Positions 1,876-40,054 of a stretch of 48,824 nucleotides of DNA are shown here, piece after piece. A program made the translations under genes and the position numbers. Position 1 is the stretch's first letter; every line of letters begins with the position of its first letter. This DNA is from Deltaproteobacteria bacterium RIFOXYD12_FULL_56_24 (GTDB taxonomy: Bacteria > Desulfobacterota > Desulfobulbia > Desulfobulbales > Desulfurivibrionaceae): contig MGTD01000033.1 of the NCBI GenBank assembly GCA_001799285.1, positions 1-48,824 of the forward strand. Direction: 5' to 3'. The notes beneath the pieces are model-generated. The model made no database searches and was not told the DNA's origin. It saw only the letters and a program-made list of their open reading frames with translations.

Positions 1876-3195
1876 ATGGCCCGACAACCTGCCCCACACA
1901 TCGCTCCCCTGGCAGAACGCCTGCGGCCGCAAACGATAGATGATTTTGTCGGGCAAAGGCAGCTGCTGGGAGAGGACAAGCTTCTTAGACGGCTCATCCA
2001 GCAGAAATACCTGCCCTCCCTGCTGCTCTGGGGGCCGCCCGGCACCGGCAAAACCACCCTGGCCCGAATTCTGGCCCAAACAACCGGCGCTGATTTTGCT
2101 TTTTTTTCCGCCGTACTCTCCGGGGTCAAGGAGATTCGGGAGATCGTGGCCCAGGCCCAGGCAGCCAAGGAAGAGCGCAACACCGCCACCATTCTTTTTG
2201 TAGACGAAATCCACCGCTTCAACAAAAGCCAACAGGACGCCTTTCTCCCCCATGTGGAAAGCGGCCTGCTGACGCTCATCGGTGCAACCACCGAGAATCC
2301 CTCTTTCCATGTTATCGCCCCGCTTCTTTCCCGGTGCAGGGTTCTGGTTCTTGAACCGCTAGGCCCGGATGATCTGCAGACCATTCTCCAGCGGGCCGTC
2401 ACGGACCAGGACCAAGGGCTGGGCTCTTGGCAGATTGCCTTGGAGCCGGAGGCTGCCGCCCACTTGGCCAGGATTGCCGACGGCGATGCCCGCAGCCTGC
2501 TGAACAGTCTGGAAATCGCCGCCAATCTCGCCGAACCCGATGCCACCGGCATGCGGCAAATAACCCTGGGCACGGTGGAAGAAGCCATCCAGCGCAAAAG
2601 CCTGCGCTATGATGCGAACGGAGAGGAGCATTACAATCTGATCTCGGCCCTGCACAAAAGCCTGCGGGACAGCGATCCGGATGGAGCCCTGTACTGGCTG
2701 TGCCGGATGCTCGCCGCCGGAGAGGAGCCCCTGTACGTGGCCCGCCGCTTGATCCGTTTCGCCTCGGAAGACATCGGCAATGCGGACCCCCAGGCCCTCT
2801 CGGTTGCCCTGAATGCCCGGAATTCCTATCAGACCCTGGGCAGCCCCGAGGGCGAACTGGCCCTGACCCAGGCCGCAACCTACCTTGCCACCGCCCCCAA
2901 GAGCAATGCCGTCTATGCCGCCTACAACACGGTGATGCACGACATCAGACGCACCGGCAGCCTGCCGGTGCCGCTCCATCTCCGCAATGCGCCAACCGCG
3001 CTGATGAAGGACCTTGGCTATGGCCAGGGCTATCAGTATGCCCACGATGACTCGCATGCCCTGGTGGACCAACATCATTTACCGGCTGAACTTGAAGGAA
3101 AGATCTATTATCAACCCACAAACCGGGGCTACGAAGCAGTCATCCGCGATCGCCTCGGCAAATGGCGGCAGCTGCTGCGAGATCGAAAAAAATAA
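1876..3195 (+). CDS. rarA: replication-associated recombination protein A (RarA/MgsA)
   Basis: A 439-residue clamp-loader-like AAA+ ATPase acting at stalled replication forks. The N-terminal ATPase has Walker A GPPGTGKTT (53-61), Walker B FVDEIHRF with the DEIH box at 110-113, and sensor 1 GATTENPSF. The C-terminal part carries the tetramerisation region typical of the family (SEDIGNADPQAL; YQYAHDD near the end). Length is normal for RarA/MgsA. The ATG lies 13 nt after a GATAAAGAG stretch. The selenoprotein cytochrome gene starts 26 nt downstream on the same strand, so the two are probably cotranscribed. Confidence 0.96.
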   Translation: MARQPAPHIAPLAERLRPQTIDDFVGQRQLLGEDKLLRRLIQQKYLPSLLLWGPPGTGKTTLARILAQTTGADFAFFSAVLSGVKEIREIVAQAQAAKEERNTATILFVDEIHRFNKSQQDAFLPHVESGLLTLIGATTENPSFHVIAPLLSRCRVLVLEPLGPDDLQTILQRAVTDQDQGLGSWQIALEPEAAAHLARIADGDARSLLNSLEIAANLAEPDATGMRQITLGTVEEAIQRKSLRYDANGEEHYNLISALHKSLRDSDPDGALYWLCRMLAAGEEPLYVARRLIRFASEDIGNADPQALSVALNARNSYQTLGSPEGELALTQAATYLATAPKSNAVYAAYNTVMHDIRRTGSLPVPLHLRNAPTALMKDLGYGQGYQYAHDDSHALVDQHHLPAELEGKIYYQPTNRGYEAVIRDRLGKWRQLLRDRKK

Positions 3196-3221: not shown

Positions 3222-4859
3222 ATGAACAAATCTACCGTTTTACTGCTTGCTCTCCTTATCTCGCTCACGCAACCCTTCACCGCGGAAGCGGCGGGGAAAA
3301 AAACGAACGGCGGTAACCCGCCTGCCGGCTTGCATGAGCTAACGTTTTTTTTCTCCAATGATGTCCGGGGGGAGACCGAGCCCTGCGGCTGAAAGAGCAA
3401 TCAGTTGGGCGGTCTGCCCAAGAAAGCACAACAACTGGTTGAATTGCGGGAGAAAAAAAACGGGGTGCTGGCTCTGGACAGCGGCGCCCTGCTTTTCAAG
3501 GAGGAAAAAATACCGCCGGACCAGGTCCAGCGACTCACTACCACGGCGAAGGGCATTGTCTCGGCATATAGCAAGATGTCTTTTGCCGCGCTCGGCGTTG
3601 CCAGGCAGGATCTTGCTGCGGGGCTGCCCTTTCTCCTAGCACTTCAGCAGAAATCAGACTTCCCCTGGCTGAGTGCAAACCTTGCCAGCCGCACTTCGGG
3701 CAAACCGTATTTCAAGCCGCACACCTTACTCACCATGGCCGGAATGAATCTCGCTGTTATCGGGCTTACCGGCAACCAGGGCACAAATGATCTACTGACG
3801 GAAAAAGACAATGCCGTAATACTTTCCTGGGAAGAGGTACTCCCCAAAGAGATTTCCCTGCTAAAAGGAAGGGCAGATATGCTGATCCTGCTTTCCAGCT
3901 TTCCGGCCGCAGTGAACAAAAAAATCGCCGAAAGGCATCCGGAGATCCATCTCATCCTGCAAAGCGGGAGCGCCTCCGGCAATCTGCCGCCGGAACTGAT
4001 CAACAACACCCTGATCACCCAAATTGAGCAGCAGGGAAAAGCCGTCGGCATCCTGGAGATACACTGGAACGCACAAACAAAAAAATGGGGAGATCCAAGC
4101 GCGGATAATCTGCTGCTGGATAAAAGAAAGGAGTTGGACCGCCTGGGGTGGCAGATAGGCCGCTACCGAAAAAACGGGGACCCGAAGGTTGCCTTCAAGG
4201 ATCAAGCCGATGTTCTCGCCGCATATGAGGCCCTGCTTACCCAGCGCCAAAGATTGGACCAGGAGATAGCCCGCCTGCTTGCAGAACAAAACGCCAGAAA
4301 TGCCAGCCGCGCTCAGTTCTCATCCTTCAGCTACCGCTTTGAAGCCATGCGGAAGGAACTCCCCGACAACCCGGCGGTTCGCGCCATTGTCGAGACCACC
4401 ACCAACGAAGTAAACCGGCTCGGCAAGCTAGCGGCCAAGGCCAGAGCCGCAACGCCCCTCGCTCAGAGCCAGGGGGTTTTCCCGGAGAATCATGCCGGAA
4501 GCACCGCCTGCCAGAACTGCCACGCCCCGCAGTTCAAGAAATGGCTCAACACCAGACACGCCTCCGCTTACACCACCTTGGAGCGCAAAGGGCAACCGTT
4601 CAATACTAAGTGCCTTCCCTGCCATGTAACGGGCGCTTTTGGCCAATCTGAAGAAATAGTGCTCACCCTGGCTGCTGACCTCCGTCAGGTTGGCTGCGAA
4701 ACCTGTCATGGCCCGAGCAGGCAGCATGCCGCCCGGCCACAAAGCGCCAAACCTAACCGGCCGACCAAGGATACCTGCCTGCGCTGTCACACCGCAGACC
4801 AGGATGATAATTTTATTTTTCCCGAGGCTCTTGCCCGCCTCCGCTGCGGCAATCCATGA
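3222..4859 (+). CDS. selenoprotein: exported UshA-like / tetraheme cytochrome c554-like fusion (UGA-encoded Sec57)
   Basis: One reading frame is interrupted only by TGA at 3390-3392. Read through, it gives 545 residues. Residues 1-25 are a signal peptide (hydrophobic LLLALLISL, then AEA). Residues 37-65 resemble the start of UshA-type metallophosphoesterase/5'-nucleotidase domains of respiratory bacteria, with SNDVRGETEPCG-[Sec57]-KSNQLGGLPK. From memory, relatives have a second Cys at this place (EPCGC). The UshA-like part runs to about residue 350 with a coiled stretch. The C-terminus is cytochrome c554-like with four CXXCH heme sites (430-434, 464-468, 492-496, 519-523). The same frame before and after TGA, normal codon use on both sides, the fixed Cys position and a SECIS hairpin all support recoding over a nonsense mutation. 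Likely periplasmic and redox-active; substrate unknown. ATG chosen because GAGG lies 11 nt upstream and the signal peptide follows. Confidence 0.88.
3390..3421 (+). promoter_or_regulatory. bacterial SECIS element directing Sec insertion at UGA 3390
   Basis: The UGA is followed after 18 nt by a five-base apical loop GGTCT (3411-3415), closed by a perfect 6-bp stem TTGGGC/GCCCAA (3405-3410 with 3416-3421). The E. coli fdhF SECIS has the same GGUCU loop and, as I recall the sequence, the same 18-nt spacing from its UGA; SelB reads this loop. The match was made by eye, without a covariance search. Confidence 0.88.
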
Positions 4860-34939: not shown

Positions 34940-35520
34940 GAATTCCCTATGTAGCCGGTTTGCGGACAAACTACCAGAGGGGTGCCACCACCGTCTACGG
35001 TTATGGTGAAGGTGGCTATCGGGTTAGCCGTCAAGGCTTGACAGGTAGAGGCATCAATCGGCTCTCCCAGACCGTTGAACCAGATTGCCCCGGCGCTAAG
35101 GCTTGCTGAAGCAGCATTATTTAGATTGCGGTTACGGTACTCGATCTCTGCGCATTCATCCGCTGCCGTACAACCAGCCCCCTGACGTTTCACCGTGTAC
35201 TGATTGGTAACCACCTCTATGCCCCATGGTTTTTTGACGCAAGTCTCATCAAACCCTCTGGTCATCGCCTTGTGCTGGGCGTAGCGTACCGCCCGCTTAA
35301 ACTCCTCGACCGCGGCTGCTTCTTTTAACCCGCTGGGCCATTTGAACGCCACCGTAATCCCCAGGACCCCGAGAATGACAATGACCATGATCAGTTCGAC
35401 CATGGTAAAACCTCCCCTTATATAATCGTGGGGAAAAGGTTTATAGCCAAAGGGCATAAGTTTTGTTTGAGCAGGCAAGCTGCTCAACTCAGCTTTATTT
35501 TGCTGGCTTGCGATCCTCAC
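34930..35520 (-). CDS. mshC: MshC-like minor prepilin with R element in the leader
   Basis: A 196-residue prepilin from GTG 35520, overlapping the mshQ stop (GTGA), with GGGAG 8 nt upstream. Leader of 37 residues, cut after G37: then FTMVELIMVIVILGVLGITVAF with Glu+5. The GspH-like C-terminal domain contains FKRAVRYAQHKAMTRGF and several Cys. Residues 9-26 of the leader come from the 54-bp R element (35443-35496). Leaving them out in frame gives a 19-residue leader of normal length. The removable leader may explain why the insertion was tolerated. Confidence 0.87.
   Translation of the reverse strand: MRIASQQNKAELSSLPAQTKLMPFGYKPFPHDYIRGGFTMVELIMVIVILGVLGITVAFKWPSGLKEAAAVEEFKRAVRYAQHKAMTRGFDETCVKKPWGIEVVTNQYTVKRQGAGCTAADECAEIEYRNRNLNNAASASLSAGAIWFNGLGEPIDASTCQALTANPIATFTITVDGGGTPLVVCPQTGYIGNSCS
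35443..35496 (-). repeat. R element, copy R2 (in frame in the mshC leader)
   Basis: 54 bp with hairpin GAGCAG/CTGCTC; on the minus strand it reads AAAGCTGAGTTG ... ACTTATGCCCTTTGGCTAT. It adds 18 codons with no stop, starting 21 nt after the mshQ stop codon. Confidence 0.85.
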
Positions 35521-38500
35521 CGGATAATCTCCCGCCAGTTGATGATCCGGTCGTTGCCTCGGTAGATGCCGAAATTAGCTCGAGCGAATGGGTTTTCGTT
35601 GTAGTCGTTGCCCGCATTGTCCCATTCGTATTGCAACCAGGCGGCAACGGTCAGGGTGTAGAGGAGAGGTCCTGTTTTGTTAGGGGCGGAAAGTGTGAAA
35701 TCCTGCCCGTTACCCACATTGGTGCCACTGGCCGTGACATCGGTGCAGATCAGAGTGTCGGCCGCGTTTGCATCTGTGCAGGCCAGAGCGGCCGCGCTGA
35801 AACTTACGCAGGAATCATCGGCATTGGTGATAAAGGCGGAGCCGTTGTAGTATTGGCTCTGTAGACGCATCTTGAGCGCTTCTCTTTCAGTGCCATAGGC
35901 ATTTTTCAGCACCAGACGGCCATAACGAAGCGGCGTGGCGGCTGTTTGCACTGAAGTGGCCGTAGCTATGGTTACGTCATCTGTGTCGGTGGGCTTGGCG
36001 TTGATCGTAATATTGGCTGGGACAACGGGCGAGGCAGGACGGCTTGCCTGGTGAATGGCGGCTACTGAGGCTATGCCATTGCTCCAGCTGCCGGTTGGCG
36101 CTGTGGCGCTTGCTAAAAGAGTTGAGCTTGGGTTAGGGGTGGTATCCCAGGTTGCGGTGAAGTTGTAGTTGTTCCAGCTGGTCAGGTCGAGCTTGGCGAA
36201 ATTACCCGTGTAGTTCTGGGTTGTCCCGTTTGCGGCATTTTGCGCGGTCAGGGTAAAGGGAGTGGCAAAACCATCCTGGCCGAAGTAAGTAAAATTGCCA
36301 GCGTCACAGCCCTCTGTTACCGCGCCAGGGGTAATGGCAAAATGATCGGGGATGAAGCGGCCCAGGTTGGCGGAGGCGCCGGTGGTGGAAAGCGAAGCCC
36401 CAAGAAAGGTGCTGTTGGTGGCGGTGAGACTAATAACCCCGACCTCACTCCAGGCGAGGTTGCTTACCGTGGCCACTCCGCTGCTGAAGTCCGATCGGTG
36501 GATGGCGATGGTGCCGCTCAAGGCTCCGTCCGCGGTCCCGGCCCCGGTGGGGGCAAGCCGGTTATGGGTGAGATTCACCGTCTCCGTGGCGTTGTTGCTG
36601 CCTGAACCGAAACTTGGGGTGATAGTGGGGGGGGTGGTGGAGGTCCGGGCGGTGATTGTGGCCTTGAATTGCTCACCGGCCTTGGCAAAGGCGCTGCCGC
36701 CGCCGACCAGCTCCGGGTCGGTGGGCGCGGCCGTGCAGGCGCCGACCACCGAGGCAGCGCAGGGGATTACCGAAAAATCGTAGGGCTTGACGATAAAAGC
36801 ATTGGTGGCGCCGGAAAGGAGGACAGAGCTCACGGTTTTCCTCGCATGCAGGGTCACCCTGCCAACATCGCCGTAATTAAAGGTAAACGGAGCGTTCCCG
36901 CCTGCATCAAAAGTCATGGGTACGGAGGGAGTGTAGCTGGTTACGCTCCCGTTGTTGTTTCGGGCGATGGTTGTGGCGGTGCCGCCGTTGATGTTCATCA
37001 GGTCGGCGGCGTAGCAGGTGGCGGGGTCGTTGCACTCATAGGCCAGGTCAACGGAGTTGGCTCCAACCAGCGCAGCCTCGCAGGCCCCGGTGGTGGTGCT
37101 GGTTTTGATCGCCCGCAGGTAATAGGGGCCCGAAGGGGTGCCGGCGGTCTGGCTTGGGATGGTGAGTCCGCTGCCGCCGGTTGTGGCGGCAAAGATGAAA
37201 CCGACATCGGAAAAAATCAGATTGCAGTCCTGAGTTGCCCCGATGTAGCAACGGGTGGCCCCGGCAGGGGAGGGGCTGACCGCGCTGGTCCCCAGGGTCA
37301 CGGTTGTGGGGATGGTTTTGCTTAAATCTACCATGGTCGAGCCGATGAAGGTAATGGGGTTGCTCGACCAGCCCGTGCCGGACAGAGTGACCGTGGTGCT
37401 GCTTGTAGCATTCGAGGTGCAGTTTACATCGGCGCAGGCCTTGACGGTGATGGTCTCCGGCATACAGGTCAGGCCGTCGCCGTCGTGTTCTAGGCGGATA
37501 TGGTCCAGACTGCTGCTTGTCGTACACGCTTCGATCTGGACATTGTCGATATAGAACTCATCATCACCGCCATTTGCGCTCGTTACCACGAAGGCAAGGC
37601 GGAAGTTGCCGGCGATATAAGCAGTGATATCTTGCGAGAAGGTGCCTCCTGCACCCTGGTCGTTATTGAACGTCTGAATGGTCGTCCAGTCCGCTCCCCC
37701 ATTGGCGGAAACGCGAACCTCCAGGGTGTCATGGCTATCCCAGCCGGACTCGCTGTAATCAAAACTCAGGGTCGCGCTGGTATAGCCGGAAAGGTCGGCT
37801 TCTCGATAGATGGAGGTGTTGTTATCGGCGTCACCCTCGAATTGCAAGCGGTTGCCGGCGATTTCGATATCGCCGTTCGACGATGAGCCGTTGTCGCCGA
37901 CCTCGGTCCAGTTGCCTGTCCAGCTTGCCGTGCCATCGTTGCGACCATAACTGTCCGAGGAAAATTCGTCGCGGAAGGTCGCGCAGTCCGTCGACGCGTT
38001 GTAGCGCAGGACGACAATACCCGCCCCGCCCTCGCCACCATTGTAAGCAGAGCCGCTGTCCGACCCAGTGGCGCCGCCACCACCGCCGCCCGTGTTGGCC
38101 GTACCGGAATTGCCGGCGCCGCGTCCAGTGGGGGCGGACCCACCGCCACCCAACCCCGCTGCCCCACCCGCTCCGCCGCCGTCCGCGCCACCGCCGCCGC
38201 CACCACCGTAGTAGACACTCGCACCCGTAATGTTGTTCTCCACGCCATCGCCACCATCGCCGCCGGTAGTATCAGTGCCATTCGCGCCTGCCTCTCCGGC
38301 GCCGCCGCCGCCGCCACCACCGTCGTTATTGTTGCCGTCGCCACCGTCGTTGCCTTGGCCGGCAGTGCCGTCGCCGCCGTGATCATTGTCGCTGCCGCCG
38401 CCGCCTGATCCGCCGTCCCTGCCATTATGCCCGCCCTCGCGCGCACCGCCGCCGCCGCCGATCGCCGTCAATGTCGAGAATGTTGAATCCCCGCCGTTCC

Positions 38501-39977
38501 CGCCATTGTCAGAACCCGTTCCGGCCGCACCACCGCCACCGACAATGATGCTGTAGCTTGTGCCCGGCGTCACGGCAACACTCGTACCGCTGAGTATGCC
38601 CCCAGCACCGCCGCCTCCTGCGCCATCCTCGTCATCGCTTCCAATGCCGCCGCCACCACCGCCGCCCGCCACGACCAGATAGCGAACATGCGTCACTCCG
38701 GCGGGCGGCGTGAATGTCCCGTTGCCGGTACAGGTGATAAGGGTATCGGCGCCCACCGTACTCTCGGTACAGCCGCCGGAGACAACAGTGCCATCGTCGA
38801 TAGGGCAGGGGTTGCTCCGGGCGCTTCCGTCCCAATTGTTGCCGGCAAGTTCGTTGGCATAGATGCTGCTGATCGAGCTGGCGGAAAGAGCGGCAGCAAA
38901 TACCTTGAACTCGTCGAGCTGCGCTTCCAGCGCCTGGCTGCTGGTAAAACCGCCGCCGAAGGAGTCCTGCTCCTGGCCAGTCAACAGGGCGTTGCTGTTG
39001 GTGATCGACAAGGCATTTGAGCTGCGGGTGTTGCAGTCCAGCAGGGTCGCGTCGAGATAGACGCAGACGCTGGTGCCGGAACGGGTGACCGCCAGGTGAT
39101 GCCAGGCGCCGTTGGCAAAGGACGAAGCAGCATTGTAATTGTTGCCCTCGTCGCGAATGTTTACCCGGATCCCCGTGCTGTTGACGAGATAAATTTCTAT
39201 CTCATCGTCTCCCGAACCACTACCCAGGCCGTGGAAAATTTCCTGCTGCGATTTATTGGCCGAGGTTTTGAACCACAGGCTGATGGTAAAATTGGTGCGC
39301 CCGTTTAAGAGCGAGATCGGCCAGCGGATGTAGTCGCTCGTGCCTGAGGCGGAAAGATCGGCGGCATGATTGACCACTCCGCCGGAAACCGTGTTCGTGC
39401 TGTAAGGAGTGCCGTGATAACTGCCGGCTGAATCGCTTACTGCGCCGCTTGTCCCGCTGGTCCAGGAGCATTCATCAAAACGGTAATCGGCAACCGGGGT
39501 CGGTTGCTGGACGGTGATCGCGTTGTTCAGGTCAAAGTTGCTGCCGGTCTGGCCGCCGCAGTTGTCATTGGAATAAGGCTTGAGGGTGAGGGTATGGGTG
39601 CCGGGAGTTGTCGGGGCGGTGATGCTGAAGCTGACACTGTCCGGGCCTGGTTCTTCCCGGTCAGAATGATTGCTGCAGGTGTCGACCCCGTTGACCGTCC
39701 ATTTGGTTGATTCCCACTCACCGTTTGCGCCGCTGGTGTTGCCGGAGTAGTTCAGGGTGACGGCAACGTCGATCGATTCGCTGGGAGCAACGGTTACCGA
39801 ACTTCCGCTATTGACGGTGGCGGAGGTGATGTCGAAATCAGCTCGGGCCAGGCCGGGGATAAACAGCGCCAATAAAAACAGGGACACTCCCCATATTTTG
39901 ACCAGAGCGGCGTGTGGCAACGCAGCTGGGTTCGCAGCATTTTCTTGTGTCGGCTGGGGAGAAGTAATTGAGCTCAT
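35517..39977 (-). CDS. mshQ: MshQ-like giant putative pilus-tip protein (LamG, Gly-rich and DUF6701 modules)
   Basis: With ATG 39977 it has 1,486 residues. A signal peptide (IWGVSLFLLALFIPGLARA) follows a 25-residue N-terminus. In order: a beta domain (about 47-160), a LamG/concanavalin-like sandwich (about 164-376, WHHLAVTRSG; LDEFKVFAAALS), a Gly-rich domain (about 420-659, TFTPPAGVTHVRYLVVAGGGGGG and many G-G-D/N-G runs), a jelly-roll-like domain (about 665-825, SFDYSESGWDSHDTLEVRVS), then the C-terminal DUF6701/MshQ region with many Cys (RFIPDHFAIT; RYGRLVLKNAYGTEREALKMRLQSQYY). First gene of the operon. Likely at the pilus tip, binding glycans or surfaces. The frame is open to 40049, but that start lies in the promoter. 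Confidence 0.87.
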   Translation of the reverse strand: MSSITSPQPTQENAANPAALPHAALVKIWGVSLFLLALFIPGLARADFDITSATVNSGSSVTVAPSESIDVAVTLNYSGNTSGANGEWESTKWTVNGVDTCSNHSDREEPGPDSVSFSITAPTTPGTHTLTLKPYSNDNCGGQTGSNFDLNNAITVQQPTPVADYRFDECSWTSGTSGAVSDSAGSYHGTPYSTNTVSGGVVNHAADLSASGTSDYIRWPISLLNGRTNFTISLWFKTSANKSQQEIFHGLGSGSGDDEIEIYLVNSTGIRVNIRDEGNNYNAASSFANGAWHHLAVTRSGTSVCVYLDATLLDCNTRSSNALSITNSNALLTGQEQDSFGGGFTSSQALEAQLDEFKVFAAALSASSISSIYANELAGNNWDGSARSNPCPIDDGTVVSGGCTESTVGADTLITCTGNGTFTPPAGVTHVRYLVVAGGGGGGGIGSDDEDGAGGGGAGGILSGTSVAVTPGTSYSIIVGGGGAAGTGSDNGGNGGDSTFSTLTAIGGGGGAREGGHNGRDGGSGGGGSDNDHGGDGTAGQGNDGGDGNNNDGGGGGGGAGEAGANGTDTTGGDGGDGVENNITGASVYYGGGGGGGADGGGAGGAAGLGGGGSAPTGRGAGNSGTANTGGGGGGATGSDSGSAYNGGEGGAGIVVLRYNASTDCATFRDEFSSDSYGRNDGTASWTGNWTEVGDNGSSSNGDIEIAGNRLQFEGDADNNTSIYREADLSGYTSATLSFDYSESGWDSHDTLEVRVSANGGADWTTIQTFNNDQGAGGTFSQDITAYIAGNFRLAFVVTSANGGDDEFYIDNVQIEACTTSSSLDHIRLEHDGDGLTCMPETITVKACADVNCTSNATSSTTVTLSGTGWSSNPITFIGSTMVDLSKTIPTTVTLGTSAVSPSPAGATRCYIGATQDCNLIFSDVGFIFAATTGGSGLTIPSQTAGTPSGPYYLRAIKTSTTTGACEAALVGANSVDLAYECNDPATCYAADLMNINGGTATTIARNNNGSVTSYTPSVPMTFDAGGNAPFTFNYGDVGRVTLHARKTVSSVLLSGATNAFIVKPYDFSVIPCAASVVGACTAAPTDPELVGGGSAFAKAGEQFKATITARTSTTPPTITPSFGSGSNNATETVNLTHNRLAPTGAGTADGALSGTIAIHRSDFSSGVATVSNLAWSEVGVISLTATNSTFLGASLSTTGASANLGRFIPDHFAITPGAVTEGCDAGNFTYFGQDGFATPFTLTAQNAANGTTQNYTGNFAKLDLTSWNNYNFTATWDTTPNPSSTLLASATAPTGSWSNGIASVAAIHQASRPASPVVPANITINAKPTDTDDVTIATATSVQTAATPLRYGRLVLKNAYGTEREALKMRLQSQYYNGSAFITNADDSCVSFSAAALACTDANAADTLICTDVTASGTNVGNGQDFTLSAPNKTGPLLYTLTVAAWLQYEWDNAGNDYNENPFARANFGIYRGNDRIINWREIIR

Positions 39978-40025
39978 TACGATCTCATGATCGATCCTTT
40001 GTCTGCTGCTGGTTGCGATCAAAGC

Positions 40026-40054
40026 AGTGTACTTAAACGTGATGATCATGTCAA
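40026..40054 (-). promoter_or_regulatory. strong sigma70 promoter of the MSHA operon
   Basis: TTGACA (40054-40049), a 17-nt spacer and TACACT (40031-40026) on the minus strand. Transcription should start near 40019, about 40 nt before ATG 39977. This rules out the farther ATG at 40049 as a start. It is the only good promoter seen ahead of 17 kb of overlapping genes. Confidence 0.7.

Follow-up and report, generated by a model that had tools for sequence, protein, structure and literature searches.

A 2008 paper on the Global Ocean Sampling data (PMC2398784) listed an UshA-like CxU selenoprotein (COG0737), which appears again in a review table of 2022 (PMC9312934) and, together with the profile NF041198, in a review table of 2026 (PMC13188914). 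The latter table also holds a second entry, NF049981 (UshA-like (seleno)protein family 2), with a CxxU motif. As given in these tables, the family and its selenocysteine (Sec) are already known and published.

We compared these systems with a protein encoded in the window, which is the whole stretch of 48,824 nucleotides that was analysed. The read-through translation matched the curated model NF041198 (UshA_like_PCGU, "UshA-like (seleno)protein") with 603 bits over residues 29-533, against a cut-off of 275, and carried EPCGU at the position of the family motif PCG(U/C). It shares with the family the near-whole-length match, the CxU motif and the domain order; nothing sets it apart, and it is an ordinary member. 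We consider it highly likely that the gene encodes a selenoprotein of this known family, as regards both its identity and its predicted Sec decoding. The initial annotation, a tool-free reading of the raw sequence, had proposed one selenoprotein rather than two open reading frames (ORFs), and the NF041198 match, the sel genes, the TGA/Cys column and the hairpin conservation agree with it; it thereby recovered what appears to be a genuine selenoprotein, of a family and with a Sec already in print.

The remaining systems are more distant. NF049981 describes a related UshA-like domain, which matched residues 40-289 of the window protein with 34.1 bits, far below its cut-off of 140, and a search for an NF049981 copy in the genome found none. 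The SoxB profile (TIGR04486) scored 28.6 bits against a cut-off of 550. The UshA and CD73 5'-nucleotidases and SoxB have their fold in common with the window protein; however, the latter lacks nearly all of their metal ligands and the catalytic pair, and its C-terminal part is a helical linker followed by a tetraheme domain. This domain contains four CXXCH motifs and matched the cytochrome c554 domain (PF13435) with 54.4 bits in the read-through protein, above the gathering cut-off of 20.8, although here it is fused behind the UshA-like Sec domain. The features of the locus are as follows, each with the evidence for it.

1876..3195, + strand: rarA/mgsA (AAA+ ATPase), the upstream neighbour; MgsA_C, 227 bits
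3222..4859, + strand: predicted selenoprotein gene, 545 codons and a terminal TGA; single in-frame TGA (U57)
3222..3296, + strand: predicted signal peptide, residues 1 to ~24; translation, model helix 4-15
3333..4448, + strand: UshA/SoxB-like phosphoesterase fold (residues ~38-283) with a long helical linker to residue ~409; model, structure and profile alignments
3378..3392, + strand: EPCGU motif (residues 53-57) with Cys55-Gly56-Sec57 (Sec predicted); homolog alignment
3390..3392, + strand: UGA codon predicted to be decoded as Sec, residue 57; frame, homolog codon column, hairpin
3405..3421, + strand: SECIS-like hairpin, 6-bp stem TTGGGC/GCCCAA with loop GGTCT; pair conservation, synonymous entropy
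4509..4790, + strand: tetraheme cytochrome c554-type domain; PF13435, CXXCH motifs

Translated with TGA as Sec, the frame 3222-4859 is open except for the TGA at 3390-3392 (codon 57), which bears out the statement of the initial annotation that the frame is the same on both sides of this codon. The parts follow in the order it described: a signal-peptide-like segment of ~24 residues, read from the translation as probably cleaved near AEA-A, the internal TGA, and then four CXXCH heme motifs at residues 430, 464, 492 and 519. The same stretch could be read as two genes or a decaying pseudogene, with a 56-residue peptide ending at the TGA and a separate ORF from the TTG at 3405, and a plain ORF list indeed shows only the downstream ORF, 3405-4859. 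We regard this reading as practically negligible. The hemes of c-type cytochromes need export for maturation, and the downstream ORF has no signal peptide; moreover, every same-genus copy recovered over most of its length can be read on through the TGA, as can the copies of nearly all relatives. The expectation that a gene caller would split the gene thus holds for an ordinary ORF caller, whereas an annotation pipeline using NF041198 would probably recognise it.

For the codon column, 146 relatives were searched with the read-through protein. Matches were obtained in 143 of them, and the great majority of the long matches contain exactly one TGA. Among the 71 full-length homologs compared codon by codon, column 57 holds TGA in 61 and a Cys codon (TGC or TGT) in 10, with no other residue. 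A TGA copy is also carried by the cultured relative Desulfurivibrio sp. AMeS2. Cys relatives with EPCGC, which the initial annotation had named, were found among the homologs, and the proposed alignment for Cys at residue 57 gave the result anticipated. Additionally, 41 homologs, each of them matching NF041198, show no variation at C55, G56 and U/C57, and the distant homologs from Myxococcota, Planctomycetota and Verrucomicrobiota have Cys at this column. UGA 57 is almost certainly read as Sec. Recoding or readthrough that inserts another amino acid without selenium would also keep the frame open; nevertheless, Cys is the sole alternative at the column, and we judge such recoding to be very improbable.

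The position of Sec varies in one branch of short homologs without a heme domain (L063, L066, L067 and L070), in which the TGA stands one codon later, in CGGU, RGGU or CGSU. Some of the short relatives with CGGU may belong to NF049981. Two further TGA copies, L130 and L144, come from MAGs, one of them labelled Oligoflexia, and lie in the tree far from the Desulfobulbales set; they would represent either a separate gain of Sec or a transfer.

The genome contains all the sel genes, which also counts against recoding without selenium. The search for selA, selB, selC and selD suggested with the initial annotation returned a tRNA-Sec with a UCA anticodon (70.4 bits, cut-off 47) and, in the genome profile search, SelB (359 bits, cut-off 242), SelA (609 bits, cut-off 268) and SelD (386 bits, cut-off 125). 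In this genome selD, too, is a selenoprotein gene, as the match contains a single in-frame TGA (L048 1501-2424; G000:C7:155886-156809).

Shortly 3' of the UGA lies a hairpin with G in its apical loop (GGUCU), as expected of a SECIS element. Its stem is formed by 3405-3410 and 3416-3421 and its loop by 3411-3415. The GGTCT loop, the 6-bp stem and the distance of 18 nt were all described beforehand; however, the 18 nt separate the TGA from the loop, and the stem itself starts at 12 nt. Of the 72 Sec copies, 70 can form the five inner pairs and 64 have the GGTCT loop; among the 10 Cys copies, 2 form these pairs. Codon choice is similarly restricted: in the Sec copies, the two Gly codons of the hairpin are GGC (71/72) and GGT (64/72) and the second Leu codon is CTG (70/72), compared with ~47% GGC and ~16% GGT among Gly codons and ~38% CTG among Leu codons elsewhere in the same genes. 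Codons 62-65 (LGGL), all four of them within the hairpin, have the lowest third-position entropy of the 47 conserved-residue columns tested, which come from one sequence set and hence share a common phylogeny. No synonymous sites of the gene are more constrained than those right after the TGA, which speaks against two genes; that the hairpin goes with TGA speaks against recoding without selenium.

Compensatory changes are few, because the stem lies within codons of conserved residues: one C-G pair is replaced by A-U, and two sequences pair in a shifted register. In folding energy the hairpin does not stand out (z = -1.17): 28 of 200 shuffled sequences folded equally well or better. When the 45 nt after each in-frame TGA of the window were folded, 12 other places gave lower values than codon 57; folding energy therefore does not discriminate the true site. 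A scan of 3300-3600 against Rfam gave sub-threshold chance matches only. The evidence that this predicted hairpin matters is evolutionary, not energetic. SelB with Sec-tRNA(Sec) would decode UGA 57 under the guidance of the hairpin starting 12 nt downstream, a step that the comparisons strongly support.

For the fold, we used an AlphaFold2 model with a mean pLDDT of 88 and a pTM of 0.84. Structure matching (VIA-align) gave Z scores of ~33 to 5'-nucleotidases and 31 to SoxB, with an rmsd of 2.2-2.6 over ~280 residues. In the profile alignment to PDB nucleotidases, Arg49, Ala89, Arg128, Gln129, Ser226 and a Ser/Gly near 248 occupy the ligand and catalytic places, which in nucleotidases (CD73/UshA) we take to be His, Asp, Asn, His, His and His, with Asn-His as the catalytic pair. 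Neither the set of dimetal ligands nor the catalytic Asn-His of a 5'-nucleotidase/UshA enzyme is present in the window protein, in which Asp47 is the sole matching metal-ligand position.

One alternative is that the UshA-like domain of the selenoprotein has kept a hydrolytic function, either as a phosphoesterase that depends on metal or on sulfur substrates in the manner of SoxB, and that Sec has an auxiliary role. The common fold, the SoxB and UshA profile matches, though far below their cut-offs, and the retention of Asp47 in many copies point in that direction. We nonetheless consider a working hydrolase unlikely, since the other metal ligands and the Asn-His pair are replaced and the family does not keep ligand residues at these columns. 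By comparison, CG(U/C), which is placed just after the first strand and next to the former metal site, does not vary across several phyla. The loss of the ligand columns together with this invariance indicates that the nucleotidase/metallophosphoesterase chemistry is very probably gone and makes the CG(U/C) pair the best candidate for the active site.

An invariant CG(U/C) in a seemingly dead phosphoesterase fold, together with hemes, suggests an extracytoplasmic redox enzyme. The product would be exported, as its signal peptide and CXXCH motifs imply, and the four C-terminal heme sites would be filled outside the cytoplasm. There, the UshA/SoxB-like domain very probably no longer acts as a metallophosphoesterase, and the Cys-Gly-Sec by the former metal site would most likely be a redox centre trading electrons with the tetraheme domain; its substrate is possibly a sulfur compound. 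For electrons to pass from Sec to heme, the two domains would have to lie close together. We accordingly describe the product as most likely a putative periplasmic redox protein, and from sequence and model its putative heme-coupled role seems to us moderately probable. The chances are about even for the wider proposal of a putative type of heme-coupled thiol/selenol enzyme, in which a Cys-Gly-Sec/Cys-Gly-Cys redox centre wired to a tetraheme cytochrome has taken the place of the lost metal site in a metallophosphoesterase fold. Such a type would span Desulfobacterota, Myxococcota, Planctomycetota and Verrucomicrobiota, and we found no characterised enzyme of this type in the literature searched, the coverage of which was incomplete.

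The distribution of Sec and Cys provides a natural control. The tree requires four Sec/Cys label changes, which is the number forced by well supported branches. Within the order, the pattern suggests that Sec gave way to Cys three times. Two of these changes would belong to families f3 and f5, some genomes of which retain a Sec copy as well, and the third to genus g47, in which three genomes (G105, G139 and G141) have Cys copies only and no SelB detected above the cut-off. That these three genomes have Cys copies is a further point against recoding without selenium. Other relatives likewise yielded no SelB over the cut-off, which is weak evidence of absence because many of them are fragmented MAGs. 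Two of the g47 genomes, G139 and G141, belong to the cable bacteria (Candidatus Electronema), and a literature search combining cable bacteria with selenocysteine returned nothing relevant. For asking what Sec adds, the three changes supply natural pairs; one of the three took place in a clade in which selB was not detected. In the literature searched, the coverage of which was partial, we found neither the lost metal site nor the Sec/Cys switch in genomes where selB was not detected; relative to the sources available, both are small additions to a published family.

The Cys-only copies of g47 are L055 (G139), L057 (G105) and L059 (G141). L055 retains much of the hairpin sequence (TTA GGC GGT CTG TCC), which is possibly a remnant of an earlier SECIS.

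In the neighbourhood, rarA ends 26 nt before the selenoprotein gene, and in 39 of 61 loci the immediate upstream neighbour, in the same orientation, belongs to the rarA cluster. This adjacency is conserved synteny without a clear functional hint; we weighed it as a pointer to function but discarded it, given that rarA is a DNA-repair housekeeping gene. Downstream of the selenoprotein gene, dnaK lies on the opposite strand. Elsewhere in the window, positions 35517-40049 (- strand) encode a 1510-residue protein with laminin-G-like, glycine-rich and DUF6701 domains.
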